A DNA stretch of 64,000 nucleotides, from NCBI GenBank assembly GCA_020722725.1, contig DYKG01000006.1, positions 1 through 64,000 of the forward strand, given 5' to 3'. Shown piece after piece: positions 28,902 through 64,000 of this stretch. The notes below the pieces were generated by a model. That model worked only from the letters and a program-made list of their open reading frames with translations. It was not told where the DNA came from and ran no database searches. The DNA is from Candidatus Methylomirabilis sp. GTDB lineage: Bacteria > Muiribacteriota > Ozemobacteria > Ozemobacterales > Ozemobacteraceae. The position numbers were made by a program, and so were the translations under genes. How positions within the stretch are numbered: the stretch's first letter is position 1; the number at the start of each line of letters is the position of its first letter.

Positions 28902-28909
28902 TCATTAAT

Positions 28910-29512
28910 ATGGCTGATAAAATCAAGAAAACCAGACCTGAGCTGCTGCGCCAACGTCGTCAGCTGTCGATGTTCCAGCGGTTTCTGCCCACTCTGGTCT
29001 TGAAGAAACAGCAGATTCAATCTGAAATCCTCAAGGTCAGGGCCGAAGTTGAAAAGCTCGACCAGCAGCTGGCCGGGCGAATCAGGCAGATTAGCTCCTG
29101 GTCCTCTCTGTTCAGTGAATCTTTGCCAGGCCCGCTTACCAGGCTGGTTGCGGTCAAAGATATTCAGCGCGGCATCAGAAATGTTGCCGGTATCAAACTG
29201 CCGGTAGTCAAAATCGTGCAGTATGAAGTTAAAGACTTCAGCCGCCTGGCGACCCCGCCATGGATTGATGCCGGTCTGCGACTGCTGAAAGAACTGATGG
29301 AACTGCGGGAAACCGTTAAAGTTCTGCATGAGCAGGAAGCCCTGCTGCAGCAGGAATTGCGAAAAGTTACCCAGCGTGTCAATCTGTTTGAAAAAGTTAA
29401 AATACCCAGCGCAAAAGAGAATATCAGGCTTATTCGCATTGCGCTTGCCGAAGAGCAGACAGCAGCCGTTGGCCGGTCGAAGATCGCCAAAGGCAAGTCT
29501 GCTGCAGCGTAA
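28910..29512 (+). CDS. atpD: V-type ATPase subunit D
   Basis: Central-shaft subunit D, a two-helix coiled coil that rotates inside A3B3. The N-terminal helix (RPELLRQRRQLSMFQRFLPTLVLKKQQIQSE) and the C-terminal helix (LQQELRKVTQRVNLFEKVKIP) are both recognisable, and the latter is a family hallmark. The length of 200 aa is normal. The partner subunit F gene is absent from the operon. Confidence 0.95.
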   Translation: MADKIKKTRPELLRQRRQLSMFQRFLPTLVLKKQQIQSEILKVRAEVEKLDQQLAGRIRQISSWSSLFSESLPGPLTRLVAVKDIQRGIRNVAGIKLPVVKIVQYEVKDFSRLATPPWIDAGLRLLKELMELRETVKVLHEQEALLQQELRKVTQRVNLFEKVKIPSAKENIRLIRIALAEEQTAAVGRSKIAKGKSAAA

Positions 29513-29529
29513 AGGAGGTCGATGCATAG

Positions 29530-31299: not shown

Positions 31300-31319
31300 A
31301 ATCTTCTAAGGAGAAAAAT

Positions 31320-31808
31320 ATGTACACATTTCTGGGAAAATTATCTCTTGGTCTTATAATGGGTCTGGGTGGCCTTGGCAGCAGTCTCGGCATTCAGGCC
31401 GCAGGTACGGCTGCCGCAGCCGGTTGGGCAAAAGAAGGCAAAGAAGGCAAACCGCTTTCTGGTAAATTCAGCGGTCTCGTTGGAATGCCCGTCAGCCAGA
31501 CTCTTTACTGCATGATTCTTTACTTCCTGATGAGCCCTTATGCTTCTGTCGAAGCTAATGGCGGCGTTCTTCTGGGTATTGCCATTGGTGTTGGCCTGTG
31601 CGAAATGATTTCTGCCTGGGTTCAGGGTGTAATCGGCGGCGCCGGGGTTCGAGCTCTGGTTGATAATGGCGGCAAGGGTTTCGGTAACATCATCGTTGCC
31701 ATGGGTATCGCCGAATCAATCGGTCTATTTGCAATGGTAACCGGAATTTTGATTCTGAATTCAGATGTAATGGTTAGGGTTGCTGAAGTTGCTGCAACCA
31801 CTCCATGA
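31320..31808 (+). CDS. atpK: V-type ATPase subunit K (rotor ring), Na+-type ligands
   Basis: Rotor c-ring subunit with four membrane helices in two fused hairpins (162 aa). The carboxylate occurs only in the second hairpin (VAMGIAESIG, Glu132), as in V-type rings. Compared with Enterococcus hirae NtpK, the Na+ ligands Thr64-Gln65, Gln110 and Glu139 have counterparts here: Ser59-Gln60 (GMPVSQTLY), Gln102 (AWVQGVIGGAG) and Glu132. This suggests a Na+-translocating enzyme. It is last in the operon and is followed by strong hairpins. Confidence 0.95.
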   Translation: MYTFLGKLSLGLIMGLGGLGSSLGIQAAGTAAAAGWAKEGKEGKPLSGKFSGLVGMPVSQTLYCMILYFLMSPYASVEANGGVLLGIAIGVGLCEMISAWVQGVIGGAGVRALVDNGGKGFGNIIVAMGIAESIGLFAMVTGILILNSDVMVRVAEVAATTP

Positions 31809-38735: not shown

Positions 38736-39206
38736 GTGATTCGCAGAACTGACGGCTTTTCGCTGATAGAAGTGTTGATGGCGGTTTTTATAATCGGTGT
38801 CGGAGTTGTGCCGGTTATGATGCTTTTTCTTACCGGCACCAAAACGGTAGAAAAAGGCGGGGTGATACTTGAGGCTTCGATTATTTCCCAGAATATTCTC
38901 GACCTGGCCCGCAGTGATTCTTTTATCTGGAAGCGTGAGCAACAGACGATCAATATCCCCGATCCCAAATTTCCCGAATTCAAGATTCCTGAATTTTTTA
39001 AAAAGAAATATCAGGCTTCAGCTACTCTAACGGTCGAAGAAGCTCCTGAACATACAATTCTTGGTACCGGGGCCAAAGAAACCAACCTTTTGCAGTTGAC
39101 GGTTATTCTGCACTGGCTTGAGAGCGGCATTCCAAAAGAGTATCGCATGCTTGCCTATCGCGCCAATACCAACTCGGTAAATCTGAAGACTTCGGCAAAA
39201 TTCTGA
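38736..39206 (+). CDS. PilV-like prepilin (first pseudopilin set)
   Basis: A type IV pilin-like protein of 156 aa. A short leader is followed by the prepilin peptidase site and N-methylation helix, DG-FSLIEVLMAVFIIGVGVVP. The Glu at position +5 is present. It has a PilV/GspI-like pattern with a compact beta-rich C terminus. Start codon GTG directly abuts the upstream lipoprotein stop. It overlaps the PilW-like gene by one base. Confidence 0.88.
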   Translation: MIRRTDGFSLIEVLMAVFIIGVGVVPVMMLFLTGTKTVEKGGVILEASIISQNILDLARSDSFIWKREQQTINIPDPKFPEFKIPEFFKKKYQASATLTVEEAPEHTILGTGAKETNLLQLTVILHWLESGIPKEYRMLAYRANTNSVNLKTSAKF

Positions 39207-39829
39207 TGAAAAAACTTTTAAAAAAGGGTTTTACTCTGGTTGAACTGAGCATTTCATCATTTATCGTGGCGCTGATTGCTCTGATTTTGATCATGGTTTT
39301 TCGCAGCAATCTGAATACCTGGCAATGGGGTCAGAAGCACATGGAATTCAACCAGCAGGTGCAGCTGGTCATGAAGCAGATTTTTACCGATCTGAAGACG
39401 GTTAACCCAATCGTGAAATTCGATGCCGACGGCAATATGATGTTTCAGGGTGAAAAAATCAATGATCTTTTTCCGAATCTGGTTACCATTTATGACAAAG
39501 ATAAAAATCCAGATAATGGCGGCGAAGAAATTGTGTTTTTTCTGACTTCTTTTAACGATGAGACAAGAAAAGATCGAATTAAATATTTTATTGAAAAAAA
39601 TAAGCTGATTCGCGAAGAAGAAGATTATAACGGCAATAAAAAGCGCCGGGTAATCGCTGAAAAGGCTAAAGACCTGTTTTTTAACGACGACCCGGGCGAT
39701 ATCAGGCAGGTTCAAATTAAGGTAACCCTGATCGATGAAAAGAACGAACAGCATACAGAAAACCTCGATTTTGCAGTACGCCTTGAAACCGACCTGGTTT
39801 GTGTAAAGGTGGTAAAAAACTATGATTGA
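39206..39829 (+). CDS. PilW-like prepilin (first pseudopilin set)
   Basis: A 207-aa prepilin-like protein. The leader MKKLLKKG is cleaved before FTLVELSISSFIVALIALI, with Glu at +5. The longer C-terminal domain is of PilW/GspJ type (VMKQIFTDLKTVNPIV). It overlaps its neighbours by 1 nt upstream and 8 nt downstream, showing tight co-translation in a minor-pilin operon. Confidence 0.85.
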   Translation: MKKLLKKGFTLVELSISSFIVALIALILIMVFRSNLNTWQWGQKHMEFNQQVQLVMKQIFTDLKTVNPIVKFDADGNMMFQGEKINDLFPNLVTIYDKDKNPDNGGEEIVFFLTSFNDETRKDRIKYFIEKNKLIREEEDYNGNKKRRVIAEKAKDLFFNDDPGDIRQVQIKVTLIDEKNEQHTENLDFAVRLETDLVCVKVVKNYD

Positions 39830-40316
39830 TCATCGATTTTCTGGCCGCCGCGGTTTCATCGCGATGATAACCTTTATACTGCTGGTAATTTTCGGTATTC
39901 TTGGCATCTTTTACTGGCTTTCCTCAAGATTGAGCACCGACATGATTCTGACCGAAGCGCACCGCATCAAGGCTAGAAGCTTTGCCCAGGCGGCGATTGA
40001 AAAGGTGAAAATCAATATCTGTAATCAGTACAACATGAACAATCACGATCTGAATTTCCCTTCAAAGTATGTGCAAAGCGCGGTTGATAAAGAGTATCAC
40101 AAAACTTTTCCCGACGGGGAATACCAGGTTATTAGCGTTAAACCTTACGAAAACAGCAACATGACCTATTATAATGTTCCGCATTTCCAGAAGGGTGTGG
40201 CGATCGGCCATTACGACATCTGGGAAGTCAAGGCTGCCGGTCGGGTAAAACCCACTGGCATCGAAGCCGAAATGACTTCTCTGGTGAAGATCTATCGCGA
40301 TTACGTTACCTATTAA
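39822..40316 (+). CDS. PilX-like minor pilin (first pseudopilin set)
   Basis: A 164-aa protein whose N terminus (SGRRGFIAMITFILLVIFGILGIFYWLSS) looks like a PilX/GspK-type minor pilin, lacking the usual Glu at +5, as GspK relatives do. The following AHRIKARSFAQAAIEKVK helix fits this class. It completes the first V-W-X set. The type IV pilus motor, platform and prepilin peptidase genes are not in the window. Confidence 0.75.
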   Translation: MIDHRFSGRRGFIAMITFILLVIFGILGIFYWLSSRLSTDMILTEAHRIKARSFAQAAIEKVKINICNQYNMNNHDLNFPSKYVQSAVDKEYHKTFPDGEYQVISVKPYENSNMTYYNVPHFQKGVAIGHYDIWEVKAAGRVKPTGIEAEMTSLVKIYRDYVTY

Positions 40317-40348
40317 ACCGGTAATCAGCTGAGGGGGGGGCAAAGGCA

Positions 40349-41620
40349 ATGAAGAAAAAGATTTTAACCGCTCTGGGTCTGATTTTAATCGGGTGTTGCG
40401 CTAATCTTGGTGCAGCAGAATTTCAGGCGCAGGTGCATGGCGATATTTACGGCCAGCCAAAAGTTATTGATGATTTCGATGGAGATGGTCACAAAGATAT
40501 TATTTTTGGCGCAACTGATGGAAAAGTGCATATTTTTTCGTCGACTGGCCGCGAGATTTTCAGGCCGCCTTACTGGCCTAAGCAGACCGGGGGACCGATT
40601 CTTTCAGATGTTCAGCTGGCTGATCTTGATGGCGATGCAAGAACTGAAGTTATCGTTGCGTCGCAGGATGGCAAAGTCTATTGCCTTAACAGCCTGGGCC
40701 GCGAAAAATGGATTCTTGATACGCGTGGAAAAATCCTGGTTTCCGCACCCGAAATCGCTGATGTTGATGGCAGCGGGCAACAGAATGTTTTTGTCGGTTC
40801 AAAATCCGGCACAGTAAGCAGAATTGGCCCTGACGGACACCTGGTCTGGGAAGTAAAGATGGATAAGTCGGTTTCTGCGGCAATTGTTACTTCTGACCTT
40901 GATGGCGACGGGGTAAAAGAAGTGGTCTGCAAGGATGACGGCGGTCGAGTTACCCTTTTGAGGGTGGGTGGTTCGAAAATGAATGGCTGGCCGCAGGAAA
41001 CGGCTGCCAACCTGACCTGGCCTTTTAACGTCGATGCAAACGATATCGACGGCGATGGCATCAAAGAGGTTTTTACAACAACACCGGATAAAAAATTTAT
41101 CATGTGGAATATGACCGGCGAGAAACTCTCTGAATTTGGGCTAAGTGATGGTGCTCATACCGCGCCCAGACTTGCTGATCTCAATGGCGATGGAAAAGAT
41201 GAATTCATCATTGGCCAGGCCGATGGAACCATTACGGTTTGCGATAAAAACGGCAATTCTCTGCCGGGCTGGCCCTTTGCTACCGGTCATGCAATTTATC
41301 ATGCTCCCAGAATTATGGACATCGACGGCAATGGAACGCTTGACCTGGTCTTTACCGCCTGGGACCCCAAAGGCATCGGCGAACGTGCCGGTTATGTAAT
41401 GGCATTGTCGCGAAACGGGGTTAAACTTGATGGCTACCCGAAATACATTGGCAAGACCGTTGCTCCGCTAACCTTTGCCGATCTTGATAACGATGGTTAT
41501 CTTGAAATGATTGCCGCTGGTGGAATCAATTATACCGGCAAACAGCTTCATGTGATCAAGACACGGGCAAGAAATAAAATCAAAGTGGCAATTATCGGGC
41601 AGCAGATTAATTTTGACTGA
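40349..41620 (+). CDS. Secreted FG-GAP/VCBS beta-propeller protein
   Basis: A 423-aa exported protein with a signal sequence (about 4-20, possibly a lipobox around LIGC). Eight Ca2+-loop motifs of the form DxDGDGxxD are evenly spaced: DDFDGDGHKD, ADLDGDARTE, ADVDGSGQQN, SDLDGDGVKE, NDIDGDGIKE, ADLNGDGKDE, MDIDGNGTLD and ADLDNDGYLE. This defines an integrin-like FG-GAP propeller. It follows the minor pilins by 32 nt (after a G-rich ribosome-binding site, GAGGGGGGG) and may be a pilus-associated adhesin; that role is inference. It overlaps the TPR gene by one base. Confidence 0.88.
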   Translation: MKKKILTALGLILIGCCANLGAAEFQAQVHGDIYGQPKVIDDFDGDGHKDIIFGATDGKVHIFSSTGREIFRPPYWPKQTGGPILSDVQLADLDGDARTEVIVASQDGKVYCLNSLGREKWILDTRGKILVSAPEIADVDGSGQQNVFVGSKSGTVSRIGPDGHLVWEVKMDKSVSAAIVTSDLDGDGVKEVVCKDDGGRVTLLRVGGSKMNGWPQETAANLTWPFNVDANDIDGDGIKEVFTTTPDKKFIMWNMTGEKLSEFGLSDGAHTAPRLADLNGDGKDEFIIGQADGTITVCDKNGNSLPGWPFATGHAIYHAPRIMDIDGNGTLDLVFTAWDPKGIGERAGYVMALSRNGVKLDGYPKYIGKTVAPLTFADLDNDGYLEMIAAGGINYTGKQLHVIKTRARNKIKVAIIGQQINFD

Positions 41621-49212: not shown

Positions 49213-49284
49213 TTTATAAGATAAAGGCTTTTATCGGGCATTTTGCCCAAATCAACATGGAAGCCTATACAAGGAGACAAGATA

Positions 49285-49839
49285 ATGAGAAAGGAAACCG
49301 AAGAAATCATCATGGCGGGCTTCGGTGGTCAGGGCATACTTTTTCTCGGAAAAGTCCTGGCCGAGGTCGGATTGGCCAGTGGCAGCAAGGTTTCATGGAT
49401 TCCATCTTACGGTCCGGAAATGCGTGGCGGAACCGCGAACTGTTCGGTCGTGATTTCTCAGCATGAAATTGCTTCCCCGATCGTATTGGAACCTGATACA
49501 CTGATTGCTATGAACCGTCCATCGGTGACCAGGTTCGAGCCAAAAGTCAAGGCTGGTGGAACGATGATCTACAATTCATCGCTGATCGATGTGAAAGATT
49601 TCCGCAAAGACATCAGGGCTTTTGCGGTTCCGGCCAGTCAGATGGCTATCGAAATGGGTAACGATAAAGTGGCGAATGTTATAATGGCAGGGGCGTATGC
49701 AAAGCTGAGTGGCCTTTTCAATTACGATCAGGTGATCAGCGCTTTTCCAAATTTCATGCCTTCATCCAAGAAAGAATTACTTGATATAAACATCAATGCT
49801 TTCAAAAAAGGATATGAATACGCAGCAACTTTAAACTGA
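49285..49839 (+). CDS. 2-oxoacid:ferredoxin oxidoreductase gamma subunit (first copy)
   Basis: Gamma domain of a 2-oxoacid:ferredoxin oxidoreductase, a CoA- and TPP-dependent enzyme that decarboxylates 2-oxoacids and reduces ferredoxin. Hallmarks are IIMAGFGGQGILFLGKVLAE and SWIPSYGPEMRGGTANC. The length of 184 aa is normal. The ORF track begins at 49243, but AAGGAGA before the ATG at 49285 fixes the start. A close paralogue is encoded at the other end of the operon (52024-52620). Confidence 0.93.
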   Translation: MRKETEEIIMAGFGGQGILFLGKVLAEVGLASGSKVSWIPSYGPEMRGGTANCSVVISQHEIASPIVLEPDTLIAMNRPSVTRFEPKVKAGGTMIYNSSLIDVKDFRKDIRAFAVPASQMAIEMGNDKVANVIMAGAYAKLSGLFNYDQVISAFPNFMPSSKKELLDININAFKKGYEYAATLN

Positions 49840-52023: not shown

Positions 52024-52620
52024 ATGTCGTCAAAAGTTGAAAGAATTATTCTCGCTGGATTCGGTGGCCAGGGCATTCTCTTTCTAGGAAAGGTGCTGGC
52101 GGAAACCGGAATGCGAGCGGGCAAGAACGTTTCCTGGATCCCCTCATACGGACCGGAAATGCGGGGTGGAACCGCAAACTGCACCGTAATTCTTTCGGAA
52201 AATGAAATTGCGTCGCCGATGGTTACCGTTCCCGATACGGTTATTGCCATGAATCGCCCCTCGGTCGCCAGGTTCAACCTGAAAATAAAAGCCGGCGGCA
52301 TGTTGATGTATAATTCGTCGCTGATTGAACGCCAGGAATTTCGCGATGATATCAGACTTGTCGAAATTCCCGCGAGTGATATTGCCGAAGAACTGGGCAA
52401 CGGCAAGGTTGCCAACTTGGTCATGGCTGGGGCCTATGCCAAGTTCAGCAAGTTGTTTACCGTCGAAGATTTGTATAAGGCTCTTCCAGATTTTATGCCT
52501 GGCAGTAAAAAAGAGCTTCTCGAAATCAATCATACTGCCGTCGAAAAAGGCTTTAACTACGTTGAAGAAAAGAAATACATGTTCGGTCGTTATGTGTATT
52601 CCGTCTTCAAAGGTATTTAA
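52024..52620 (+). CDS. 2-oxoacid:ferredoxin oxidoreductase gamma subunit (second copy)
   Basis: A 198-aa paralogue of the protein at 49285-49839. The two share long stretches, for example AGFGGQGILFLGKVLAE, SWIPSYGPEMRGGTANC and IAMNRPSV. This copy has a C-terminal extension (KKYMFGRYVYSVFKGI). A GAGGAGG ribosome-binding site gives it independent translation. It ends the unit, ahead of a terminator. It may replace the first gamma under some conditions or serve another alpha/beta pair elsewhere. Confidence 0.92.
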   Translation: MSSKVERIILAGFGGQGILFLGKVLAETGMRAGKNVSWIPSYGPEMRGGTANCTVILSENEIASPMVTVPDTVIAMNRPSVARFNLKIKAGGMLMYNSSLIERQEFRDDIRLVEIPASDIAEELGNGKVANLVMAGAYAKFSKLFTVEDLYKALPDFMPGSKKELLEINHTAVEKGFNYVEEKKYMFGRYVYSVFKGI

Positions 52621-53048: not shown

Positions 53049-53759
53049 TTGTCTTTCAAGGTGCGAATTCACCAAACTGAACCTGGCGGCAGCCTGAACA
53101 AAGACAACCGTCATCGCCTGGAGCGGGTCATGCGGCTGCGGCCGGGCGATGTTTTCGTTGTTACCGATGGTTGTGGGCATGAGGCCGAAGCGGTGCTTGG
53201 CGAGGGTGGCAGTTATTCGGCTTCCGCATGGCAAAAACCCGGTCGCGAACCGTCCAGAAAAATCTCTCTATATGCCGGCCTTACCAAGGGTGAGAAATTT
53301 GACTGGCTGGTTGAAAAAGCGGTTGAGCTTGGCGTAGAGAGAATTGTGCCGGTAATCTCGCAGAACTGCGTGGTTAAAAAAACATCTGAGGCAAAGACCG
53401 AGCGCTGGCAGAAAATAGCTTTGGGCGCCATGCTGCAGTGTGGTGGCTGCGTTTTGCCGGAAGTCTCTCCGCCGGTATATCTGAAAGACCTTCCTGAAAT
53501 CGACGATGAGTCTGCACTGGTTCTTTATGAGCAGGGTGCGAACGTCGAGGCCGCCTGTTTTGCAGATTTTGCCGCCCTCAAAAAATATCGGATTCTTACT
53601 GGCCCCGAAGGCGGGTTTTCACCTGAAGAAATCGTTGGGTTACAGAAACGCGGCTGGCAGACCGTCTGGCTTGGGCCAAGAATATTCAGGGCTGAAACTG
53701 CGCCCCTGATCGTTCTTTCTGTTCTTCTTTGCGGCAGCTGGGGAAAGGTTAAGCCATGA
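53049..53759 (+). CDS. rsmE: 16S rRNA (uracil1498-N3)-methyltransferase RsmE
   Basis: RsmE methylates U1498 of 16S rRNA. It is a SPOUT methyltransferase: HRLERVMRLRPGDVFVVTDG opens the PUA-like domain, and the C-terminal knot has LTGPEGGFSPEEIVGLQKRGWQTVWLGPRIFRAETA. The length of 236 aa is normal. The start is TTG. It overlaps mtaB by 4 nt (ATGA), so the two RNA-modifying enzymes are co-translated. Confidence 0.95.
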   Translation: MSFKVRIHQTEPGGSLNKDNRHRLERVMRLRPGDVFVVTDGCGHEAEAVLGEGGSYSASAWQKPGREPSRKISLYAGLTKGEKFDWLVEKAVELGVERIVPVISQNCVVKKTSEAKTERWQKIALGAMLQCGGCVLPEVSPPVYLKDLPEIDDESALVLYEQGANVEAACFADFAALKKYRILTGPEGGFSPEEIVGLQKRGWQTVWLGPRIFRAETAPLIVLSVLLCGSWGKVKP

Positions 53760-55012
53760 GAAGCTTGAGATTTGTCCTGAAGTCTCTTGGCTGCAAGGTC
53801 AGCCAATACGATGGCGAGCGTCTTGCCGAAAAATTGCAGATTCTTGGATTGAAGCCAGATGAAAAAGAACCTGATATATTTATTTTAAATGGTTGTTCGG
53901 TTACCGGGCGGGCGTCGCAAAAAGTTCGTCAGACCCTGCGTGCGGCCAGAAAACGCTGGCCTGAAGTGAAAATCGTTCTGGCCGGTTGCGAAGCCAGATT
54001 GCGCCGCCAGCGCAATGAGGAAAGCCTTGAAGCAGACTATGTGCTGCCTTTTTTCGGGGAATTTTCGGCAGTGCTGGCAATGGTTCAGCATCTTTTTGCT
54101 GATTTTGCTTGTGATCCGCGCCGGGTCGCCTTTGAAGAGCCGGTTTTAACCGCAAAAACCCGTGCATTTCTTAAAATTCAGGATGGCTGCAACCAGTTCT
54201 GCTCTTATTGCATCGTTTCGCATCTGCGGGGCGAAGAATGGTCCCGGCCCATTGATGAGGCAATTGAAGAAGCACGCAGATTGGCAGCTGAAGGGCATAA
54301 AGAAATCGTTCTTACCGGCATTCATCTCGGCCATTTCCGGCCTTCATTGATCGATCTGCTGCGTCAGCTGGAAAAAATTCCAGAGCTGGCAAGAATCAGA
54401 CTCAGCTCGATCGAGCCGGTTGAGGTCGATGAAAAACTGATCGACTGGGCTGCTTCATCAGAAAAAGCCTGTCCGCATTTTCATCTTCCTTTGCAATCAG
54501 GCTGTGATTCAATTCTGAAAATGATGCGCCGGCCTTATTCCACTCAAGATTTCAGAAAGGTGGTCGAGCGAATTCGTCAACGAATGCCCCTGGCAGCCAT
54601 AACTACCGACCTGATTGTCGGTTTCCCTGGTGAAACTGATGAATTTTTTGCTGAAACCGTGAAGTTTATCGAAGAAATTCAGTTTTCGCGCATTCATATT
54701 TTCAAGTTTTCACCCCGGGATGGCACTCCTGCCGCCACAATGCCTGATCAGATCGGAAACCATGTAAAATCGATGCGATCAGATGAAGTTGAAAGAATCT
54801 GGCATAAGAGCGCCGCTGCTTTTTACCGAAAATTTGTCGACAATAGAGTTGAGGTTCTGTGGGAAACTTTTGCAGGAACCAGCTTGCAGGGTTTTTCCCG
54901 TGAATATGTTACTTGTTTTTGTGAAGGGAAATCCGAGGGTTTGATAAATTCAATTGCTCTGGCAACCGGTGTTTCCAGCGATGACAATGGGTTAGAAGTC
55001 TTTTTCGATTAA
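53756..55012 (+). CDS. mtaB: tRNA t6A37 methylthiotransferase MtaB
   Basis: A MiaB-family radical-SAM methylthiotransferase (418 aa). The N-terminal cluster cysteines are in SLGCKVSQYDGE, LNGCSVTGRAS and VLAGCEARL. The radical-SAM motif is DGCNQFCSYCIV. KVSQYDGE and the RLSSIEPVEV region fit MtaB rather than MiaB or RimO. It probably converts t6A37 to ms2t6A37 in tRNAs. It overlaps rsmE by 4 nt. No clear terminator follows before the pilin promoter. Confidence 0.9.
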   Translation: MRSLRFVLKSLGCKVSQYDGERLAEKLQILGLKPDEKEPDIFILNGCSVTGRASQKVRQTLRAARKRWPEVKIVLAGCEARLRRQRNEESLEADYVLPFFGEFSAVLAMVQHLFADFACDPRRVAFEEPVLTAKTRAFLKIQDGCNQFCSYCIVSHLRGEEWSRPIDEAIEEARRLAAEGHKEIVLTGIHLGHFRPSLIDLLRQLEKIPELARIRLSSIEPVEVDEKLIDWAASSEKACPHFHLPLQSGCDSILKMMRRPYSTQDFRKVVERIRQRMPLAAITTDLIVGFPGETDEFFAETVKFIEEIQFSRIHIFKFSPRDGTPAATMPDQIGNHVKSMRSDEVERIWHKSAAAFYRKFVDNRVEVLWETFAGTSLQGFSREYVTCFCEGKSEGLINSIALATGVSSDDNGLEVFFD

Positions 55013-55028: not shown

Positions 55029-55059
55029 TTGCCAGCCCAGGCTTAGCCTATGCTACAAT
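55029..55059 (+). promoter_or_regulatory. Promoter of the second pseudopilin cluster with an internal palindrome
   Basis: TTGCCA (55029-55034), a 19-nt spacer and an extended -10 TG-C-TACAAT (55051-55059). The spacer contains the palindrome AGGCT-T-AGCCT (55039-55049), placed where a repressor could block RNA polymerase. The promoter is 31 nt before the first pilin gene. Confidence 0.5.
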
Positions 55060-55089
55060 TAAAGCGAGACTGGTTTTTGGATTAAATCG

Positions 55090-55614
55090 ATGCTGAAAAA
55101 AAGTGGTACCACGCTTATTGAGATAATGATCGCTTTATTCGTTCTTGCTTCTGCCATGATTCCGATCGCTTCAATTATGGGATACGGCGGTCGAGCAACC
55201 AGTAAAGATGCGAGACGTATTCTTGCGATGCAACTGCTCGACAAAACTTTGCGCCAGATGTTGCAGGCTGATTATGACGAGATACCCATCGGAAAAAATA
55301 TCCAGAACGGCTTTGAAGGCATAGCCCTTGGCGATGTTACAGCTGGCCAGGATAAGGGGTTCTCCTTCAATATCTCACTGGACAGTGAGTATGTTAATCC
55401 GGTGAAATTCAAATACCGGGGAGTAGGGGTAAATCGCCCGACTTTCAAGGCAGATAGCCCGGTCGGAGACGACTTTTTACCTGAAGAGACAATTTCTCTC
55501 AATGATGTGGTCATCAAATTAACGGTTACCGTGACCTGGAATGAGCAGCAGAATCTGCCGGTTTCGGTTTCAGCGATGACTTACCGGGCAGATTTTCAGA
55601 GGAGAACCGGTTGA
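55090..55614 (+). CDS. PilV-like prepilin (second pseudopilin set)
   Basis: A 174-aa prepilin. The cleavage region is MLKKSG-TTLIEIMIALFVLASAMIPIASIMGYGG, with Glu at about +5 and the typical helix ending in GGRATSKDARRI. The C terminus is a beta-rich domain. It is first in the set and probably transcribed from the promoter at 55029. It overlaps the PilX-like gene by one base. Confidence 0.85.
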   Translation: MLKKSGTTLIEIMIALFVLASAMIPIASIMGYGGRATSKDARRILAMQLLDKTLRQMLQADYDEIPIGKNIQNGFEGIALGDVTAGQDKGFSFNISLDSEYVNPVKFKYRGVGVNRPTFKADSPVGDDFLPEETISLNDVVIKLTVTVTWNEQQNLPVSVSAMTYRADFQRRTG

Positions 55615-56090
55615 TGCATTATCTTGACGCAAAACGATCTGGAATGGCCCTGATTATTGTGCTGACACTGGCTACCGGCATTCTTATACTTGGCATTTCT
55701 TATATTAATACGATCAGAAAGCAGTCCGGGCGCAATACCATCGAGCTTGGGGCAATTCAGGCTGATCTTCTTGCCGAGGGCTTGACTCAGATTGCCATGC
55801 TGAAATTCAAAGAAATTCCCGGGCCGTTGTATTACGCCTATATTGCACACGTAAAAGGAAACACCTCGCAACCCTATTCGGTTTATCACGGCGACGCTAT
55901 TCTTGGGGGCAAGCTTGACAGCCCTTTCAATGCCGAGTTTCGCACCACATTTCAGCTGCTTTCGTCGAAGATGTATCAGGATATGAACGTTAAAATTACA
56001 GTGGAAGTTGAAGTCAGCCGGCCAGATGGTGAAAAATACCAGCGTCTGATTGAACGTACGGTTTCTGGTTCTCGTCGACCAGCATTCTGA
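55614..56090 (+). CDS. PilX-like minor pilin (second pseudopilin set)
   Basis: A 158-aa protein with an N-terminal membrane helix (SGMALIIVLTLATGILILGISYINTI) of PilX/GspK type and no Glu at +5. The mature part is a single alpha/beta domain. The ORF track starts at a TTG at 55611; ATG at 55614 is preferred and overlaps the upstream stop by one base. The order here is V-X-W, while the first set is V-W-X. Confidence 0.75.
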   Translation: MHYLDAKRSGMALIIVLTLATGILILGISYINTIRKQSGRNTIELGAIQADLLAEGLTQIAMLKFKEIPGPLYYAYIAHVKGNTSQPYSVYHGDAILGGKLDSPFNAEFRTTFQLLSSKMYQDMNVKITVEVEVSRPDGEKYQRLIERTVSGSRRPAF

Positions 56091-56100
56091 AGGAGCCTGC

Positions 56101-56880
56101 ATGAGATTGAAAACTGACTGTCGCAGAGGCTTTACTTTAATAGAAATTCTTATTGCCGCCGGCGTTCTTTCGCTTTTCATGACCGGAGTATTTTCTTTAT
56201 ACCGCTCAGGTTCAAAAGGCTTTGTGGCCGGCACCTGGCGTGCTGAAGAACAGAAACGCGCACAACTTTTCCTTTCAGCCCTTTCCCGTGATTTGAGTAT
56301 GGCAAATCCGGCTTTGTTGAGAATTGAAGATGACGGGGCGCGGACAGTGGTTCAAAACACCCCCATCTATGTTAATAAAGATATGTTCAGATTCAATGCC
56401 AACCCGGTTTTTATGGATGCCAACACCAAAAACTGGACCTGCCTGCTCGCATTTTCCATTTCTTACCCTTACCTTGAAGCCAACGCCACCTTTGCCACTC
56501 CGCTTGAAAATGGAAAATGGTCTGGTGTGGCGATCTGGGTAAAAGAGCGCAAGGTGCGCTATGTAAGAACCAGTGACCCGAATTTTTATTCTTCGCACCC
56601 GGTGGGTATGCCCGGTGCCATCGTTCAGTTTCCTGGCCCGGGAATTGTGGGTCCCGGTGCAGATTTTCGGCCAGATCCAGATCAAAACCGCAATCGTGAT
56701 TTCGACTTCAATCTGGACCAGATTGCCTGCGTGGCCACTGGCACCAGTCTTGCTAGTCCAAGAGTGATGGAGTTTATTTGTCGTTTTGCCAGGATTGAGG
56801 GCGGTAAAAAAACCGACGCAGAAATCGTGCAGAACGTCACGGTAAAGCTGGCCTCGATGACTCCTATAGTAACCTTCTGA
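56101..56880 (+). CDS. PilW-like prepilin (second pseudopilin set)
   Basis: A 259-aa prepilin-like protein. The leader MRLKTDCRRG is followed by FTLIEILIAAGVLSLFMTGVFSLYRS, with Glu at +5. The C-terminal region (about 100-255) is larger than in the PilW-like protein of the first set and includes a D/R/N-rich loop (PDPDQNRNRDFDFNLD). The ATG at 56101 follows GAAGGAG; the ORF track start at 56050 lies inside the previous gene. Confidence 0.85.
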   Translation: MRLKTDCRRGFTLIEILIAAGVLSLFMTGVFSLYRSGSKGFVAGTWRAEEQKRAQLFLSALSRDLSMANPALLRIEDDGARTVVQNTPIYVNKDMFRFNANPVFMDANTKNWTCLLAFSISYPYLEANATFATPLENGKWSGVAIWVKERKVRYVRTSDPNFYSSHPVGMPGAIVQFPGPGIVGPGADFRPDPDQNRNRDFDFNLDQIACVATGTSLASPRVMEFICRFARIEGGKKTDAEIVQNVTVKLASMTPIVTF

Positions 56881-56890
56881 CAGGAGAGAT

Positions 56891-57667
56891 ATGAAAAGAT
56901 TTTTTACAACAATGATAGTTTTTTTTACACTGGTATTTATGGCATCTTCACTTCAGGCAGGCAAGCCAGAGTGGGGTGTCGTTAATTCTTCGGTTTTGAT
57001 TCGACTTCATCCGTTGATGCAGCAATTTGACCCGGCGACCCGGCGGTTCAGAGGCACTCTCTCAGAGCCCGGCCCTGAAGAAGGTCAGGCTGATTATAAT
57101 GCCAGGCTGCAAAGTCGTCTGCAGGCCATGGAAAACACTATTCGGCAGCTTGACCTGAATTATGCCGGTCAGATAACCGGTAGCGGTATGTCTGCTAAAA
57201 AGTCATACCTTCTCTACTGGAAAAAGCGGGAGAGCCTGCGTTTTTACGCGTATTTGCTCAAAGAAGCGCTAAGTCTCGCTTCAAAGCAGGGTAATTTTTA
57301 TCTCAATATGCCCTCAGACTGGACTTTAATGCCGGTTGTGAGGGGTATTAGCTCAACGATAAATGAAGTCTGTATGATTCTGGCCAAAAGAAACGAGTTG
57401 ATCGGGGTTCTCGACAGTTCTGTGTTCGATTCTCCAACTACTGCCATGGCGACCGGGGTAAATCAGCACTGGGGTGTTTGGCGCGGCGATGAGAAGGCCA
57501 TGAGTCAGATAAGCCAGTCATGCGGGCAATTAATGTTCAGTGTCAGACAAAGTTTCCCTGAAAGAAGCCACCGGCCATTCGTGGCGGGTGTGGTTGATCT
57601 TCAGGTTCCAGCGATCGAGATGTTGAAAAGCATATCATTGCCGAACGCAGATGTTCCCGAAGAATAA
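56891..57667 (+). CDS. Secreted Skp/OmpH-like protein (first)
   Basis: A 258-aa exported protein (signal peptide about 1-23, cleavage after LQA). After VVNSSVLIRLHPLMQQFD, which resembles the start of Skp/OmpH chaperones, comes a helical region with coiled-coil character (about 55-145), then a short strand near GVLDSSVFDSPT. The following gene shares this layout, so the two are probably paralogues. It lies 10 nt after the pilin gene and before the 1387-aa protein, and may help export or fold it. That role is inference. Confidence 0.6.
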   Translation: MKRFFTTMIVFFTLVFMASSLQAGKPEWGVVNSSVLIRLHPLMQQFDPATRRFRGTLSEPGPEEGQADYNARLQSRLQAMENTIRQLDLNYAGQITGSGMSAKKSYLLYWKKRESLRFYAYLLKEALSLASKQGNFYLNMPSDWTLMPVVRGISSTINEVCMILAKRNELIGVLDSSVFDSPTTAMATGVNQHWGVWRGDEKAMSQISQSCGQLMFSVRQSFPERSHRPFVAGVVDLQVPAIEMLKSISLPNADVPEE

Positions 57668-57685
57668 GGCATTCGAGGATAATAT

Positions 57686-58639
57686 ATGAAAAATATTTTT
57701 AAAAAAATTGTTTTAATTTGGGTATGCTTCTTTCCTTTGGCCGCTTTTGCTGTGCCGCCGATGTACACCGTTGATTACAAGCTTCTGGTCGGCCTCCATC
57801 CGAAGATGGGTTCATACGATATCGTTCTTGAAAGACATCTGCGATCAGATATTAACTTCAGCGATTCAAACCGTATTAATGAACTGAATCTTCAAATTGC
57901 CAGCGCCAGCATGCAGGCAAATCGGCGTATAGAAGAACTACAACGTGATCTTGATCGCCTGCTGGCCGAAAAAGCAAAAGTGGAAAACCGAATGACCGGG
58001 GTTGTTGAGTTCGATGAAGAGCTTGGAAGATATGATGGAGACAGCAGTAGAAAGCATCAGGCCAGAAAGATTTCAGAAATTGAGATGGACATTGTTGCGG
58101 TTCAGGCAAAAATAGATGCGATCTGGGATGACGTGATGAACCCACTTTACCTGAGTCGTCAGCAGTCGCGAAAAATAGTTGAATCGGTGCTTGCGGAGAT
58201 CGATCTGATGCTTGAGCAATTCTCGACGCAATTGGGGAATGCGGTTATTGTTGACCGGGATTTTCTTGGTTCACAGATACAGCCTGATAAAGTTACATCT
58301 GCTCCATCAGTAGGCGCAGACCCTTTGAGTATCAGGCTTTACCAGTCTCTTTTGCACTCTGACCTCGTTGGTGATGTTCCAGATGTTTATAAGCGTGACC
58401 CTGAACTGCGAAAATATGCTTCACAAATGCGCCGCGATATTGAAGACAGTTTCGACCGCAATATTTCAATGCAGATTTCCAAACAGCCTTTATATGGAAA
58501 TCTGCCTAAATTTCGCGGGCGACTATTTCTGGCCGGTGCTCAAAATCTCGACATAACCCGCCAGGTTCTTGAAAAGATTTTTGTAAAACATGCGGTTAAA
58601 GCTGATATTGCCGCCCGTATTCTTGCCCAGGTCAAATGA
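57686..58639 (+). CDS. Secreted Skp/OmpH-like protein (second)
   Basis: A 317-aa exported protein (signal peptide about 1-22, cleavage after AFA). TVDYKLLVGLHPKMGSYD resembles the opening of the preceding protein. A strong coiled coil (about 55-110, NRRIEELQRDLDRLLAEKAKVENRM) and a second helical block (about 120-190) follow, as in Skp/OmpH proteins. The C-terminal 100 residues have no recognised relatives. It is 14 nt upstream of the giant-protein gene. Confidence 0.6.
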   Translation: MKNIFKKIVLIWVCFFPLAAFAVPPMYTVDYKLLVGLHPKMGSYDIVLERHLRSDINFSDSNRINELNLQIASASMQANRRIEELQRDLDRLLAEKAKVENRMTGVVEFDEELGRYDGDSSRKHQARKISEIEMDIVAVQAKIDAIWDDVMNPLYLSRQQSRKIVESVLAEIDLMLEQFSTQLGNAVIVDRDFLGSQIQPDKVTSAPSVGADPLSIRLYQSLLHSDLVGDVPDVYKRDPELRKYASQMRRDIEDSFDRNISMQISKQPLYGNLPKFRGRLFLAGAQNLDITRQVLEKIFVKHAVKADIAARILAQVK

Positions 58640-58653
58640 CCAAGGAGGATTGT

Positions 58654-61600
58654 ATGCGACGATTTATTCTGTTGTCTGTCCTGGTGCTGGTTGCGTTTAC
58701 CGGTCCGGTTTACGGTCTGGCAGTAGAATACATGCGCAATGGCGAGTGCTACCTGTTGATTGGCCACAGTGATGCCACTTTCCGTGGGGTTTACCGTCTG
58801 AACAATCCTTCGAGCGAACCCGATGGCAATCCTGTCGGCGTCAAGCTTTTTGACCCCAGAGATTCGTATGGTATTGCGGTTAATCTAAACCGCAAAGTTT
58901 ATACTTTTTCTGAAAATGTTGCACCTTCTTATGTCAAAATTACCGACCCAATCAAACGTTTGCTTAAAAAGCCAGGCGGAGTAGGTCTCTGGGGCGCTCA
59001 TTGCGATACCCGCAAAAGCTATTATGTCAGTACTGAAAATACTACATATGATGAGTCTAATCGTCCGATTTACACTACTACCGGTCCGATGGGCAGCAAC
59101 AATGAAAACCTTTCAGACGATCCGACCAATGTTTCCTGGACCTGGAGCGGTATTGTAAAACCAACAATCAAGCATACCGACAAGTGGTATTTTCAAAAAA
59201 CTGCGGTTTATTGCCATAACAACTGTATTTATACCAATGGATCATCCGACGCCTACTGGTGCCATTTTGTCAATGTTGACAGCTCTGGTTATGGCTCGAT
59301 TCCCAATGATTCCTGGTGGCAGTCACGCGATGCTGACCCGCATGGCCGCAAAGGAAACATTTTCTACTGGGATCGTGTTTATCGAAAATATACCTACTAT
59401 GATCTCAATTCCTGGGATAAAACGATGGGTATCTGGAAACCATGGGCTCCGGTTTACAGCAAGTCTGAAGGGATTGCTGACAAAATCTATGACGAAATTG
59501 TAAAACGCTCGCAAATTTCTGCCTGCATGAACGTTGTCTGCGTTAATGGCAGTAACGAGCAGAATTTTTCGGCGAAGCCCAAATTTACCTGCCTGGCCAT
59601 GTCACCGTTCGGCCGCATGTATCTCTATACCAGAACACAATCCAGCGCCTCTGATGGTGAAGTCAGACTGAATGGTACGGCAATGTCTCCAACCAGTTCA
59701 AATATTCGTGGCTATCTGAATGACCTGACCACGGAATGGGTAGGGGTTTCAGCAAAAAGCAAGACTGATGATTTCGTTTATCTGCTTGGAACCAATCTGA
59801 TTAAAGACTGGTTGAAAAAGTTCAACATCAAACCCTCATCGCTGAATATTACTTCGGTCGCCGTTTCTGACCAATGGTGGCTTGACGGTGGTATCGTGTA
59901 TGCCTACGATGCTGATGAAGGCGCAGCTTATCAATTTATTCGCTTTGATAAAGATGGTAACGATACCTGTAAGGCGATTCCCAAGAAAATAGTTATTGGC
60001 GCAGGGGTTGATGCTTTGAAAGCGGATGGTTTCGGTAACCTTTATTTTGCCAAAACCACACAGGAGCCTGAATCCTCAGCCAAGATCAGCTGGCCAGAGC
60101 TGTATACATTCTACGGCTACAGTTTCTACAGTGGACGGGCCTACGCAATTGCCTATTATCGACAAAAGGTTTTTAAAACAGTTTTCTGCCAGGAGTTGGG
60201 CGCAACCGGAAACTATCAGGTCGGCAAAATCCATATCGGCAATAACATCTATCGGCGCTATTTCAGTGTTCCGCTGGCCACCTGGCCCACTTTGACCCTG
60301 GCTAATCTTAAATCAGCGGCAGCATTGCCGGGCTGGACCTGGATGACAGGGCTTCAGGTAAACACGCTGGTAGCAGATCCCAAGCTTACTCAGCTGGGAG
60401 TCATCAACGTTGCCACCCCGCCGAAAATGACTCTTCTCAACGGTCAACTTGGCGTGGTTGACATTGTTGGGGTCGAAGACGTTTCCCCTGGTTTTAAATT
60501 CCTTACCGATGAAGTTGACCAGGCCATGTATACCTTCAGAATTGAAAATGCCCCCTATTGGGAAGGCCGAAACAACATTGCAGTTCCCGGCAAAACCAAG
60601 TGGGAGGGCGATCGCAACTACAACGGCACTGAGGGCGGTTTTGTTTCTTCCCTTATGAATACCTCTTCATATGTCGATTCATCGCCTGAAGTACTCTATA
60701 CCTGGAAAATTTATAAAATTCAGGATGCTTTTGGTAACCCACTTCCTTCGCCGCAACTGGTCAAAGAAATGGTCGATAGCCCAAGCGCTGCGATTAAATA
60801 CTATTTCCGTTCAGGAACATATCAGATCATGGCTTCTGCCAAATTCAAATATTATGATTTCAACAGTCTGCCTTTTGGTTCGACCGTCGACGACCTGAAT
60901 GATTCGATTCGACCTGCCACTGGTTATGAAATTGCAAAGGCTGCGCCGGTCGATCCGGGAATAAACAAAAAAGCTTTTCCAGGCTTGGAAACTTCAATTC
61001 CTGCGAACACTGCAGTGACGGTTCTTAAAGTTAATCGCCAGATTCCGATTCCGGCCGGAAAATCTGTTGATATTCAGCGCCTGATTGGGACCAAATGGAC
61101 TGATCCCAAGCTATACGGAAGCGTCAAATATCACGGAGTATGGGAAGACGAAGATAACAAGTGGCGTTTAAAAGAAGATTCAAAAGATCCTGTCGGGGAT
61201 TACCTGCATGATCTTTATTTCCTGCCCAAGGTTAATAACAGCAATATGGTTCCGGGCACGTTGAAGTGGAAAAACAACATGCCGGTTCAGTATGAATGGA
61301 CATTTAATCTGACTCTTCCTGATGGAACCGTTTATCCTGCCCAGGAAATCTCAAAGCAGAGCTGGAGCCAGACAGATTTCGCCATCAATCTGAAGCAGGA
61401 TTTCCCAACTGACCCGACAATGGGAAAACTGGTCTGCAAAGCTTACCGAGACTGGGAATATCTTGAAAATACTTATGACAGCGATGGCAACTATATTGGC
61501 CAGGAGAAAATAGTAGGCACAATTGAATATGCCGGTGATGTTGATATTCTGGTAAAAGATCAGACTGCCCCCAAGGTTATTGCCATTAATGGAAAATCTC

Positions 61601-62817
61601 TGGTGACAGGTTCGCCTCTTGACCCCATATTACTTGGAACCACAGCCGGTTCGGTTAATGCAGCCCTTTCACACAATGATTACAGCAATCCCGCCAGTTT
61701 CTCTATTCTGGTTGAAGACAACAATATCTACGCTAATATGAATATGGTTGCCCCGGTCGCTGCTGCAGATCGACTGCATAATCGAGGCAGCAAACAGGTG
61801 GGCACTTTCATGTTTGAACGTGGTTCTGGCAAGGAACTTTATCCCTCTAATCCAGCCACTGCACAATTCAAGCATTATACAAGCCCTGGTGCAAGCCTGG
61901 TTGCCGATATTACGACCATCTGGACTCCCGATGAAACCTATAAGGTTATGCGCAAACCTCAGCCTTACAAGGCCGGTGATACAAGCAGTTTCATTCTTTA
62001 TGTTTTTAGAGTTCAGGACTGGAAACATCTTCAGGATGGAACACCCGACGATATAATGTCAGACCCACAGCGCTGGCCCATCGATTTCGCCAACAACAGC
62101 CCGGGATACAATGCTAACGGTGCTCTTGGAGCCAAGCATTCCGGGTATGCAATATTTTTCGCACCCACAGACAGTTCGGGCAATGCCAGCACCAAAGCCC
62201 ATCTGGGCAATGTCTGGATTCGTGATGACCTGTTGCCGATCGTCTATTCTGAAACCAATGACTACATCAATTCTTTCAAAGAGCTGCAGCCGTTCGGCAT
62301 CGAGAAATACCTGGTCAAACATCCATTTGACAAAAAAAAAGATTACCCATGGTATGGCAAACTGCCGAACAATCAGGGTGACTGGGCATGTGAAGATACC
62401 GGCACCTGGCCAGTTCTCAACGATCTGCTGGGTATTCCCTGCGGCCTGAACAAAAAGCTGGCAACCTACCATCCACCAATCATTCAGGAAGGCATGGAAA
62501 TATTCATGCAGGTCAGAGCGATGGATAACATTGCAGTTTCTGCAACGGTCAAACCATACATTGAAGTATCTGGTCCAGGCGGCTTGTACACCGAGGGAAC
62601 TCCGGCCCAGATCAACGAGAATTCGGGCAGTCGCGAAAATATAAGGTTGATGTTGCAGAAATCAGGGGTTTACGACGTGATGCTTACCGCACAGGATAAT
62701 GCTCTTGACTTCTTTAATAATCCCAAACCGAACCAGAGAATCATCAGGTTTGGCATTGTTGTCGGCCCTGCCCAGATGGAAATCAGGGTAATCGACAAGA
62801 AAAATTCAGACCTGTAA
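58654..62817 (+). CDS. Large secreted protein (1387 aa), pilin-locus linked
   Basis: An exported protein (signal peptide about 1-22, cleavage near VYG). I do not recognise a family. The first third is rich in Trp, Tyr and paired Cys (WGAHCDTRKSYY, AVYCHNNCIY, NVVCVNG), suggesting a disulfide-stabilised, propeller-like or aromatic surface. Later, phrases such as GTYQIMASAKFKYYD (about 722), QYEWTFNLTLPDG (about 879) and GVYDVMLTAQDNALD (about 1338) resemble PKD/Ig-like modules. The position downstream of minor pilins recalls a PilY1-type tip adhesin, but no similarity to PilY1 is seen. AAGGAGG sets the start at 58654; the ORF track start at 58636 overlaps the previous gene. Confidence 0.7.
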   Translation: MRRFILLSVLVLVAFTGPVYGLAVEYMRNGECYLLIGHSDATFRGVYRLNNPSSEPDGNPVGVKLFDPRDSYGIAVNLNRKVYTFSENVAPSYVKITDPIKRLLKKPGGVGLWGAHCDTRKSYYVSTENTTYDESNRPIYTTTGPMGSNNENLSDDPTNVSWTWSGIVKPTIKHTDKWYFQKTAVYCHNNCIYTNGSSDAYWCHFVNVDSSGYGSIPNDSWWQSRDADPHGRKGNIFYWDRVYRKYTYYDLNSWDKTMGIWKPWAPVYSKSEGIADKIYDEIVKRSQISACMNVVCVNGSNEQNFSAKPKFTCLAMSPFGRMYLYTRTQSSASDGEVRLNGTAMSPTSSNIRGYLNDLTTEWVGVSAKSKTDDFVYLLGTNLIKDWLKKFNIKPSSLNITSVAVSDQWWLDGGIVYAYDADEGAAYQFIRFDKDGNDTCKAIPKKIVIGAGVDALKADGFGNLYFAKTTQEPESSAKISWPELYTFYGYSFYSGRAYAIAYYRQKVFKTVFCQELGATGNYQVGKIHIGNNIYRRYFSVPLATWPTLTLANLKSAAALPGWTWMTGLQVNTLVADPKLTQLGVINVATPPKMTLLNGQLGVVDIVGVEDVSPGFKFLTDEVDQAMYTFRIENAPYWEGRNNIAVPGKTKWEGDRNYNGTEGGFVSSLMNTSSYVDSSPEVLYTWKIYKIQDAFGNPLPSPQLVKEMVDSPSAAIKYYFRSGTYQIMASAKFKYYDFNSLPFGSTVDDLNDSIRPATGYEIAKAAPVDPGINKKAFPGLETSIPANTAVTVLKVNRQIPIPAGKSVDIQRLIGTKWTDPKLYGSVKYHGVWEDEDNKWRLKEDSKDPVGDYLHDLYFLPKVNNSNMVPGTLKWKNNMPVQYEWTFNLTLPDGTVYPAQEISKQSWSQTDFAINLKQDFPTDPTMGKLVCKAYRDWEYLENTYDSDGNYIGQEKIVGTIEYAGDVDILVKDQTAPKVIAINGKSLVTGSPLDPILLGTTAGSVNAALSHNDYSNPASFSILVEDNNIYANMNMVAPVAAADRLHNRGSKQVGTFMFERGSGKELYPSNPATAQFKHYTSPGASLVADITTIWTPDETYKVMRKPQPYKAGDTSSFILYVFRVQDWKHLQDGTPDDIMSDPQRWPIDFANNSPGYNANGALGAKHSGYAIFFAPTDSSGNASTKAHLGNVWIRDDLLPIVYSETNDYINSFKELQPFGIEKYLVKHPFDKKKDYPWYGKLPNNQGDWACEDTGTWPVLNDLLGIPCGLNKKLATYHPPIIQEGMEIFMQVRAMDNIAVSATVKPYIEVSGPGGLYTEGTPAQINENSGSRENIRLMLQKSGVYDVMLTAQDNALDFFNNPKPNQRIIRFGIVVGPAQMEIRVIDKKNSDL

Positions 62818-62822
62818 AGGAA

Positions 62823-63539
62823 ATGCTGTTGATTCGCAAAATTCTGTCGGTGCTGATTCTTTTCAGCGCCGGCTTTTCTTTTTCTGCCGTCGAAGCCTGC
62901 AGCGAGTATGTTCATATGTGGCGACCAGTTAAAGAGGAAACATCTGCAAGCCTGTCTTCTGAAGGTCTGGCAGTTTTTCTGCGTCGGCTTGAAAAGCTTT
63001 TGCCACAGAATGAAAAAAGCTGGTTCATCTGCTTGAATCCTGCTTCAGAGACATTGAATGAGCTTTCATTGCCACTGGCTTCTGCCGTTTCATTACTAGA
63101 CAACCGCAAGCTGATCTGGCATCATGAGTTGTCGCCGTTTTCCGGGAAAGCCGGAAAAATAGCGGCGATCTGGCTTGATTTTGTCGAGCCGCTTCGGCAA
63201 AAATACTGGTGGTATGATGACAATAAACCTCCCTTGGCCATGTTTCGTGTCGGTGAGCTTGAAAGCTCAGTAGTGCGGGTTATGGTGCGCGATTCAACCG
63301 GAAAAATATTTTTAATTGAAGAATTTAAACATTTGTTTTTAATCGAGAGTGATTTCATGGTGCCCGCCTGGTTCGGCAATGGCGGTGCCTGGTTGCGTCG
63401 TCTCTCATATCAGGTCGATCCGAAAGAAAAAAGGGTTGAATATACCTTTTCCATTCCACCGGATCAGGAAACCATCAATGCTACTCCTGAAGATATCGAC
63501 CGTTTTTATTTTGGTGATACTCCACCGAAAAGCTTTTGA
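62823..63539 (+). CDS. Secreted protein of unknown function
   Basis: A 238-aa exported protein with a signal peptide (about 1-25, SAVEA region) followed by CSEYVHMWRP. There is no recognised domain. The pattern is soluble, mixed alpha/beta, rich in Trp (WLDFVEPLRQKYWWYDD) and has a C-terminal proline-rich tail. It is 5 nt after the 1387-aa gene, so it probably belongs to the same system. The Cys immediately after the signal region could also mean a lipoprotein, but the lipobox is poor. Confidence 0.6.
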   Translation: MLLIRKILSVLILFSAGFSFSAVEACSEYVHMWRPVKEETSASLSSEGLAVFLRRLEKLLPQNEKSWFICLNPASETLNELSLPLASAVSLLDNRKLIWHHELSPFSGKAGKIAAIWLDFVEPLRQKYWWYDDNKPPLAMFRVGELESSVVRVMVRDSTGKIFLIEEFKHLFLIESDFMVPAWFGNGGAWLRRLSYQVDPKEKRVEYTFSIPPDQETINATPEDIDRFYFGDTPPKSF

Positions 63540-63622
63540 AAATCTTTTCGCTGTTTTGACTTCGGGGCTTTTTTTTCAAAAAAAAATGTACTAGAATCGA
63601 AAAAAACAATCCGAGGCAAAAA

Positions 63623-64000
63623 ATGCATATTTTAAAAGAATACCTGATTGTGCTCTTATGTCTTTTTACCGCTTTAACCATTACTGGTTGTGGCATTGCC
63701 GGAGATCCAAACGCACCTGAAGAAGATGATTCGGTAACCCTGAAGATGAATGTTGAGGCGCCAGAAATTAATTCTGAAGGAATTCTTGCGGCGAAATATT
63801 CTTCCGATCTGGTATTGCGTCAGTTTTCAAGCAGTGGTGTATGCATGATCAACAATACACCGGTAAATTTTACCCTGAATACACAAAGCAGTTTATTGAC
63901 CATAGAAAAATTGCCACCCGCCGATTCTTATGAAATTGCACTGAAAACCGGTGCTCTCGAATTACGCGGTGTTGCCCAGTATAGTGGCCGAATCATCAGC
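63623..64000 (+). CDS. Lipoprotein, truncated by the window edge
   Basis: An open frame of 126 codons that runs off the end of the window and is not in the ORF track. It starts at ATG 63623 after CCGAGGCAAA. The N terminus has a signal sequence ending in the lipobox TITGC (Cys at about 23), followed by GIAGDPNAPEEDD. The rest is beta-rich (LKMNVEAPEINSEG, NFTLNTQSSLLTIEKLPP), like an Ig/Big-type domain of surface lipoproteins. It is probably part of the preceding secreted-protein cluster. Confidence 0.75.
   Translation, partial: MHILKEYLIVLLCLFTALTITGCGIAGDPNAPEEDDSVTLKMNVEAPEINSEGILAAKYSSDLVLRQFSSSGVCMINNTPVNFTLNTQSSLLTIEKLPPADSYEIALKTGALELRGVAQYSGRIIS

Follow-up and report, generated by a model that had tools for sequence, protein, structure and literature searches.

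Type IVa pili are believed to depend on tip complexes of the PilY1 type for priming, adhesion and surface sensing, and Skp is known as a general holdase. In Myxococcus xanthus there are three paralogous clusters, in each of which minor pilins are encoded alongside a PilY1 protein; the products of a cluster act jointly in priming the pilus and occupy its tip (PMC7541494). One of these clusters also encodes the periplasmic protein TfcP, by which PilY1.1 is stabilised ahead of its entry into the machine (PMC8833165). Here, an association of minor pilins with a very large secreted protein was analysed in the Riflebacteria, a phylum of uncultured bacteria that has drawn attention for being dense in novel gene families (PMC10849945). 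In the reading that we consider probable, these genes form a cassette for a complex that would prime the type IV pilus and cap it in the manner of PilY1, but that is built on an unrelated giant protein with its own dedicated Skp-type holdases.

Gene content and borders of the cassette

The window, which is the whole stretch of 64,000 nucleotides that was analysed, corresponds to bases 1-64000 of contig C5 (109,771 bp), in an assembly of 3.6 Mb and 89 contigs from a member of Candidatus Riflebacteria (family Ozemobacteraceae). The cassette spans positions 55090-63539 in the order pilV-pilX-pilW-skpA-skpB-giant-p238, with all genes on the plus strand. Its upstream neighbour is an mtaB-like radical SAM gene (53756-55012). 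From mtaB through to p238, the successive gaps are 77, -4, 10, 10, 18, 14 and 5 nt, so that those within the cassette range from -4 to +18 nt. An earlier note, made from the letters alone, had described three minor pilins, two Skp-like proteins, a secreted protein of 1387 residues and a further secreted protein as nearly contiguous; all of them were found, on the plus strand, the likeness to Skp being remote. The run is far beyond chance, since the same gene set returns at 28 of the 28 complete loci of the family. A six-frame search recovered pilins hidden by antisense open reading frames at four of the related loci (L041, L057, L058 and L062), as well as the pilX of the window.

The note had also counted a lipoprotein in the run. 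Contiguity holds through p238, but the lipoprotein gene (351 aa) begins only 83 nt further on. The window ends within this gene, which extends to position 64678 of the contig and is followed, after a gap of 104 nt, by an OMP-like gene at 64783-65904. Homologues of these two genes were found in none of the related loci and neighbourhoods fetched. In view of this lack of counterparts, and with their wider gaps, both were ruled out as members of the cassette.

The last gene, p238 (62823-63539, plus strand), encodes a secreted protein of 238 residues in which a C-x4-H-x-W motif directly follows the signal peptide, and which may be a lipoprotein. It recurs at no fewer than 17 of the 28 complete family loci, the motif is kept in 21 of 24 members, and no Pfam or NCBIfam family was matched. 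One homologue, of 380 aa (L064:12294-13436), carries an extension that reads as ankyrin repeats.

Elsewhere in the window, inspection by eye showed two similar 2-oxoacid:ferredoxin oxidoreductase gamma-like genes (49243-49839 and 52024-52620) and a V/A-type ATPase-like operon (24555-31808).

Minor pilins and pilus machinery

The pilV gene (55090-55614, plus strand) encodes a PilV/GspI-like minor pilin of 174 residues with the prepilin motif KSGTTLIEI; it matched the Pfam N_methyl family at E=1e-3 and has homologues at the family loci. Among NCBIfam models, GspI was matched at E=2.8e-4 (21.3 bits for a cut-off of 44.35) and PilV at 6e-3, both below their cut-offs. The next gene, pilX (55611-56090, plus strand), starts with TTG and encodes a PilX/GspK-like protein of 159 residues with the motif RSGMALIIVL, which lacks Glu5. 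It belongs to a conserved family (A6) of which 3 of 18 members matched GspK, the best at 3.3e-4 and below the cut-off. PilX proteins without Glu5 have also been reported from P. aeruginosa, N. gonorrhoeae and M. xanthus (PMC7541494). Finally, pilW (56101-56880, plus strand, ATG at 56101) encodes a PilW/GspJ-like protein of 259 residues (motif RRGFTLIEIL, family A8). It matched N_methyl above the cut-off (1.1e-6), GspJ at 5e-3 (16.6 bits for a cut-off of 64.85) and TIGR02599, the Verru_Chthon protein C, at 8e-5 (22 bits for a cut-off of 256.5). No pilin of the cassette exceeded the NCBIfam cut-offs for GspI, GspJ or GspK, and no fourth minor pilin (FimU/GspH) was found within the cassette.

As to the machinery, PilM was present in 37 of 37 Riflebacteria genomes. 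In the genome of the window, pilM is followed on contig C73 by matches to PilN, PilO and a secretin in one run; this genome also holds five secretins and six PilT-family matches over the cut-off. From these three observations, retractile type IV pili are expected in this organism. Four PilT-family reading frames stand in tandem at G000:C45:23206-29578. The PilY1 family (PF05567) was detected in 0 of 37 Riflebacteria genomes; since no control genome gave a match, the absence of PilY1 from the phylum is suggestive only.

The V, X and W genes matched the pseudopilins GspI, GspJ and GspK of the type II secretion system (T2SS) at least as well as their type IV pilus counterparts. These are the best family-level matches of the trio, and the genome contains several secretin and PilM-like systems. 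Both points are consistent with a dedicated pseudopilus of the GspI/K/J type that pushes the giant protein through a secretin and releases it or leaves it at the surface, the Skp-like proteins being holdases before secretion. We regard this as unlikely: neither an ATPase nor a secretin recurs beside the cassettes at the annotated loci, the PilT-family matches point to retractile pili, and the many paralogous cassettes, each with a trio of its own, are more in keeping with a common machine that takes alternative tips.

Minor pilins are paired with a propeller protein a second time, on a smaller scale, at 39206-41620 of the window, the first of its two minor-pilin clusters. There, a PilW-like gene (39206-39829) and a PilX-like gene (39822-40316) precede a gene for a 423-aa FG-GAP beta-propeller protein (PF13517, 1.6e-33).

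Skp-like proteins

The skpA gene (56891-57667, plus strand) and the skpB gene (57686-58639, plus strand) encode predicted periplasmic proteins of 258 and 317 residues, each with a signal peptide; SkpA-like genes adjoin the giants throughout the phylum. When compared by hhalign with 11 housekeeping Skp proteins of Riflebacteria, SkpA and SkpB gave probabilities of 96.7% and 95.2%, values to which a coiled-coil bias may contribute; the SkpA alignment takes in the N-terminal strand. As single sequences, 12 of 17 SkpB-like and 2 of 13 SkpA-like members matched OmpH (PF03938), at best with 1e-4 and below the cut-off, and none of the cassette proteins scanned reached the gathering score of this family. 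In the genome search with PF03938, a housekeeping Skp was found in every genome and the weaker matches were mostly Skp-like proteins of the cassettes.

The AlphaFold2 monomer model of SkpB (pLDDT 84.9) consists of a short strand, a long helical hairpin and a second short strand. In the Foldseek search with this model, coiled coils dominated, no match was significant and Skp itself (1sg2) came at rank 22; for this reason the assignment rests on the profile comparison. A PDB sequence search with the SkpB profile returned coiled-coil noise only. Thus the two proteins are likely to be remote homologues of Skp: the likeness proposed in the earlier note stands as distant homology, but not as membership of the family. 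They may act as holdases for the giant.

Distribution and linkage in Riflebacteria

Of 40 Riflebacteria genomes, 38 were matched by a profile built from 26 giants, among them 24 of 24 from family f1, often with several giants per genome. The genome of the window has three cassettes, on contigs C5, C61 (giant of 1607 aa) and C31 (giant of 1583 aa), and its Skp-like matches lie in giant loci in six of six cases. The cassette on C31 (L139) belongs to a third paralogue clade and has one Skp-like gene; its orthologues are L141-L143, L154, L156 and L157. A scan of 84,980 prokaryote species gave 36 loci, most of them titled Riflebacteria or Ozemobacter(aceae) and one Erysipelotrichia; as it used a single motif, other lineages may still hold giants.

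At the complete loci of the Ozemobacteraceae, meaning the 28 loci with enough flank, minor pilins and at least one Skp-like gene stand beside the giant in 28 of 28 cases after the six-frame search. The encoding of the large protein together with V, W and X minor pilins, as for PilY1-type proteins, was observed at every one of these loci and in none of the other families of the phylum. Several gene orders occur: V-X-W-skp-skp-giant-p238, as in the window; skp-skp-giant-p238-V-X-W; and p238-skp-skp-W-V-X-skp-giant. In the reverse direction, 46 of 46 PilX-like matches at E<1e-30 lay within 3.5 kb of a giant, all in family f1. Of the Skp-like matches in 20 genomes, 80 of 110 lay within 7 kb of a giant among the giants listed, and some of the others may be at contig ends or near giants below the listing limit. 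Furthermore, pairwise distances between giants and between their partners were correlated (r=0.86-0.88), with 0 of 999 permutations as high. This correlation, to which shared ancestry by itself contributes, shows that the cassettes are inherited jointly, as units.

Outside the family, Skp-like genes, as a rule two, stand next to the giants of families f3, f4 and f5 (about 1,700-2,200 aa), and no adjacent pilins were detected there with the pilin profiles. Two giants have neither Skp-like genes nor pilins adjoining: one of 1507 aa in family f6 (L153) and one of 1496 aa in a genome of family f1 (L155, G002). These two loci stand outside the set of 28 for insufficient flank or similarity, and the G002 genome gave zero matches to the SkpB-like profile. 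In a FastTree phylogeny of 53 giants, rooted on f3, families f4 and f5 fall outside the pilin-linked clades. The earlier note would have been contradicted by giants occurring mostly without pilins; this is not the case in the family of the organism, but it is across the rest of the phylum as sampled here. Because the f3-f5 giants keep Skp genes without adjoining pilins, we infer that skp-giant is the older core, to which the minor pilins would have been added, or beside which they would have moved, in the lineage of the Ozemobacteraceae.

The same loci in f3-f5, together with their place in the tree, would also fit a surface system made up of the Skp-like pair and the giant by themselves, with the minor pilins as mere genomic neighbours acquired in one family. 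This seems quite improbable to us, given that the linkage in the family holds over several gene orders and paralogue clades, that the distances are correlated and that strong PilX-like matches are never apart from a giant. Moreover, PilY1-type tip proteins may likewise be unlinked from minor pilins, as is PilC of Neisseria.

A secreted protein of 549 aa (L140:494-2143, G000:C47) matched the giant profile in part only (3e-8). Other genomes contain relatives of it with about 570 aa, and it is possibly a stand-alone head domain.

The giant secreted protein

The giant gene (58654-62817, plus strand) encodes a candidate pilus-tip adhesin of 1387 aa with a signal peptide; members of its family range from about 1,340 to 2,200 aa. 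Position 58654 is most likely the start, because its ATG, which yields 1387 aa, is preceded by AAGGAGG. By eye, the N terminus is MRRFILLSVLVLVAFTGPVYG, and the homologues have N-terminal hydrophobic leaders; on this inspection, the giant shares with PilY1 a Sec signal peptide on a large soluble protein. The giant had been described as rich in aromatic residues and Cys. Aromatics do make up 12.2% of the chain, but Cys is not abundant, with 13 in 1366 residues (1.0%). The Cys at position 291 is invariant, and 23 of 26 members keep another one about four residues further on.

Neither Pfam nor NCBIfam, PilY1 included, has a family that the giant matched, and a PDB sequence search with its profile gave no match. 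The PKD-like modules attributed to it were not confirmed: Pfam recognised none in it and at most five of 26 homologues gave weak PKD matches; beta strands do abound in the model. AlphaFold2, run on residues 22-1221 with 36 sequences, predicted a nearly all-beta structure (mean pLDDT 82.5, pTM 0.54). In this model, which was also compared by Foldseek, a propeller-like N-terminal head of about residues 22-590 (58717-60423, plus strand) is followed by beta-sandwiches. The top PDB matches were ROS1, integrin alpha-V and Sevenless, proteins that combine a propeller with beta-sandwiches. As the whole-chain TM-scores are low (about 0.1), this predicted likeness is one of class and indicates no relationship. 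Against viral models, Foldseek returned chiefly Ig/Fn3-rich tail proteins with low TM-scores, and one giant homologue gave a weak Pfam match to the SGL propeller.

The motif DRNYNGTEG at residues 653-661 (60610-60636, plus strand) is of the DxDxDGxxG type and is a candidate calcium-binding loop. A motif of this type stands at the aligned position in 17 of 26 homologues, and 21 such motifs occur across all 26 proteins.

That the giant is a true PilY1, diverged or rearranged past recognition, would account for the similar neighbourhood, the propeller-like domain and the candidate calcium loop, but we give it very little credence, since PF05567, the PilY1 propeller, matched 0 of 26 giants at E<=0.1, no PilY1 is among the best 50 PDB fold matches listed, and the propeller-like part is N-terminal with other beta domains after it, the reverse of PilY1. 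The giant cassette would work like a minor pilin/PilY1 complex and yet lie, by the sequence test applied, outside the PilY1 family.

Discussion

Taking the cassette as a tip and priming complex, the following mechanism can be proposed. In the inner membrane, the PilV-, PilX- and PilW-like minor pilins would assemble into the trimer that initiates the pilus. After export by Sec, the giant would be held, unfolded or competent for assembly, in the periplasm by both co-encoded Skp-like proteins. It would join the minor-pilin trimer and, carried at the end of the pilus as this grows, pass out of the cell by way of the secretin; there, its propeller-like head may serve as an adhesive or sensing tip. 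The p238 protein would be an accessory envelope protein, and several paralogous cassettes per genome would provide interchangeable tips.

More tentatively, and with somewhat less than even confidence, we suggest that PilY1 has been replaced in Riflebacteria by giant tip proteins of an unrelated family, with propeller and beta-sandwich domains, whose assembly would need duplicated Skp paralogues dedicated to this cargo, probably as hetero-oligomers, so that swappable cassettes would give one machine many tips. The picture drawn in the earlier note, with pilins as a platform, Skp-like proteins as escorts and the giant as a tip adhesin, is still the best-supported reading; it has been trimmed of the lipoprotein, the pilins do not accompany the giant phylum-wide, and skp-giant appears as the core.

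Should a whole phylum, showing no recognisable PilY1, have instead a multi-copy cassette with an unrelated giant, this would mean that a tip adhesin can be exchanged on a minor-pilin platform that itself stays in place. Lineage-specific paralogues of Skp, each linked to a single client gene, would then be an unusual specialisation. With this proposal, some of the phylum's largest conserved genes of unknown function also acquire roles that can be put to the test. In the open-access literature searched, no description of this system in Riflebacteria or Ozemobacter, or of Verru_Chthon cassettes, was found.

The Verru_Chthon cassette (NCBIfam TIGR02599 and companions), which is multi-copy in Verrucomicrobia and combines a large protein with pilin-like proteins, resembles the present one in these respects and through the pilW match; that match lies far below the cut-off, however, and the giant matches no NCBIfam model. 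With the T2SS, the cassette shares the weak matches of V, W and X to the GspI/J/K trio, which is the homologous tip initiator there, but it lacks Gsp machinery and is paired with giant and Skp-like genes.

With Skp/OmpH (PF03938), the cassette proteins share a signal peptide, a short N-terminal strand, a long helical hairpin with a VxD strand behind it and a D-I/L-T motif near the C terminus. They are longer (258 and 317 aa here, about 190-500 aa in the family, as against about 165-205 aa for housekeeping Skp), remain below the Pfam cut-off and occur as several paralogues per cargo gene, in addition to a distinct housekeeping Skp.

The type IVa minor pilin/PilY1 clusters (fimU-pilV-pilW-pilX-pilY1) have in common with the cassette a large Sec-exported protein encoded with V, W and X, an X without Glu5 and several paralogous clusters per genome (three in M. 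xanthus). The predicted propeller-like domain of the giant and its candidate calcium loop would be further points of likeness to PilY1. By contrast, the giant is unrelated to PilY1 by Pfam, its head is N-terminal where that of PilY1 is C-terminal, and no vWA domain was found in it; the Riflebacteria cassette is without FimU and has two or three Skp-like proteins added. As in M. xanthus with TfcP, a periplasmic helper is encoded in a cluster of minor pilins and a tip protein; TfcP, a cytochrome c, acts on calcium binding, whereas the helpers of the cassette are of the Skp type and come in twos or threes.
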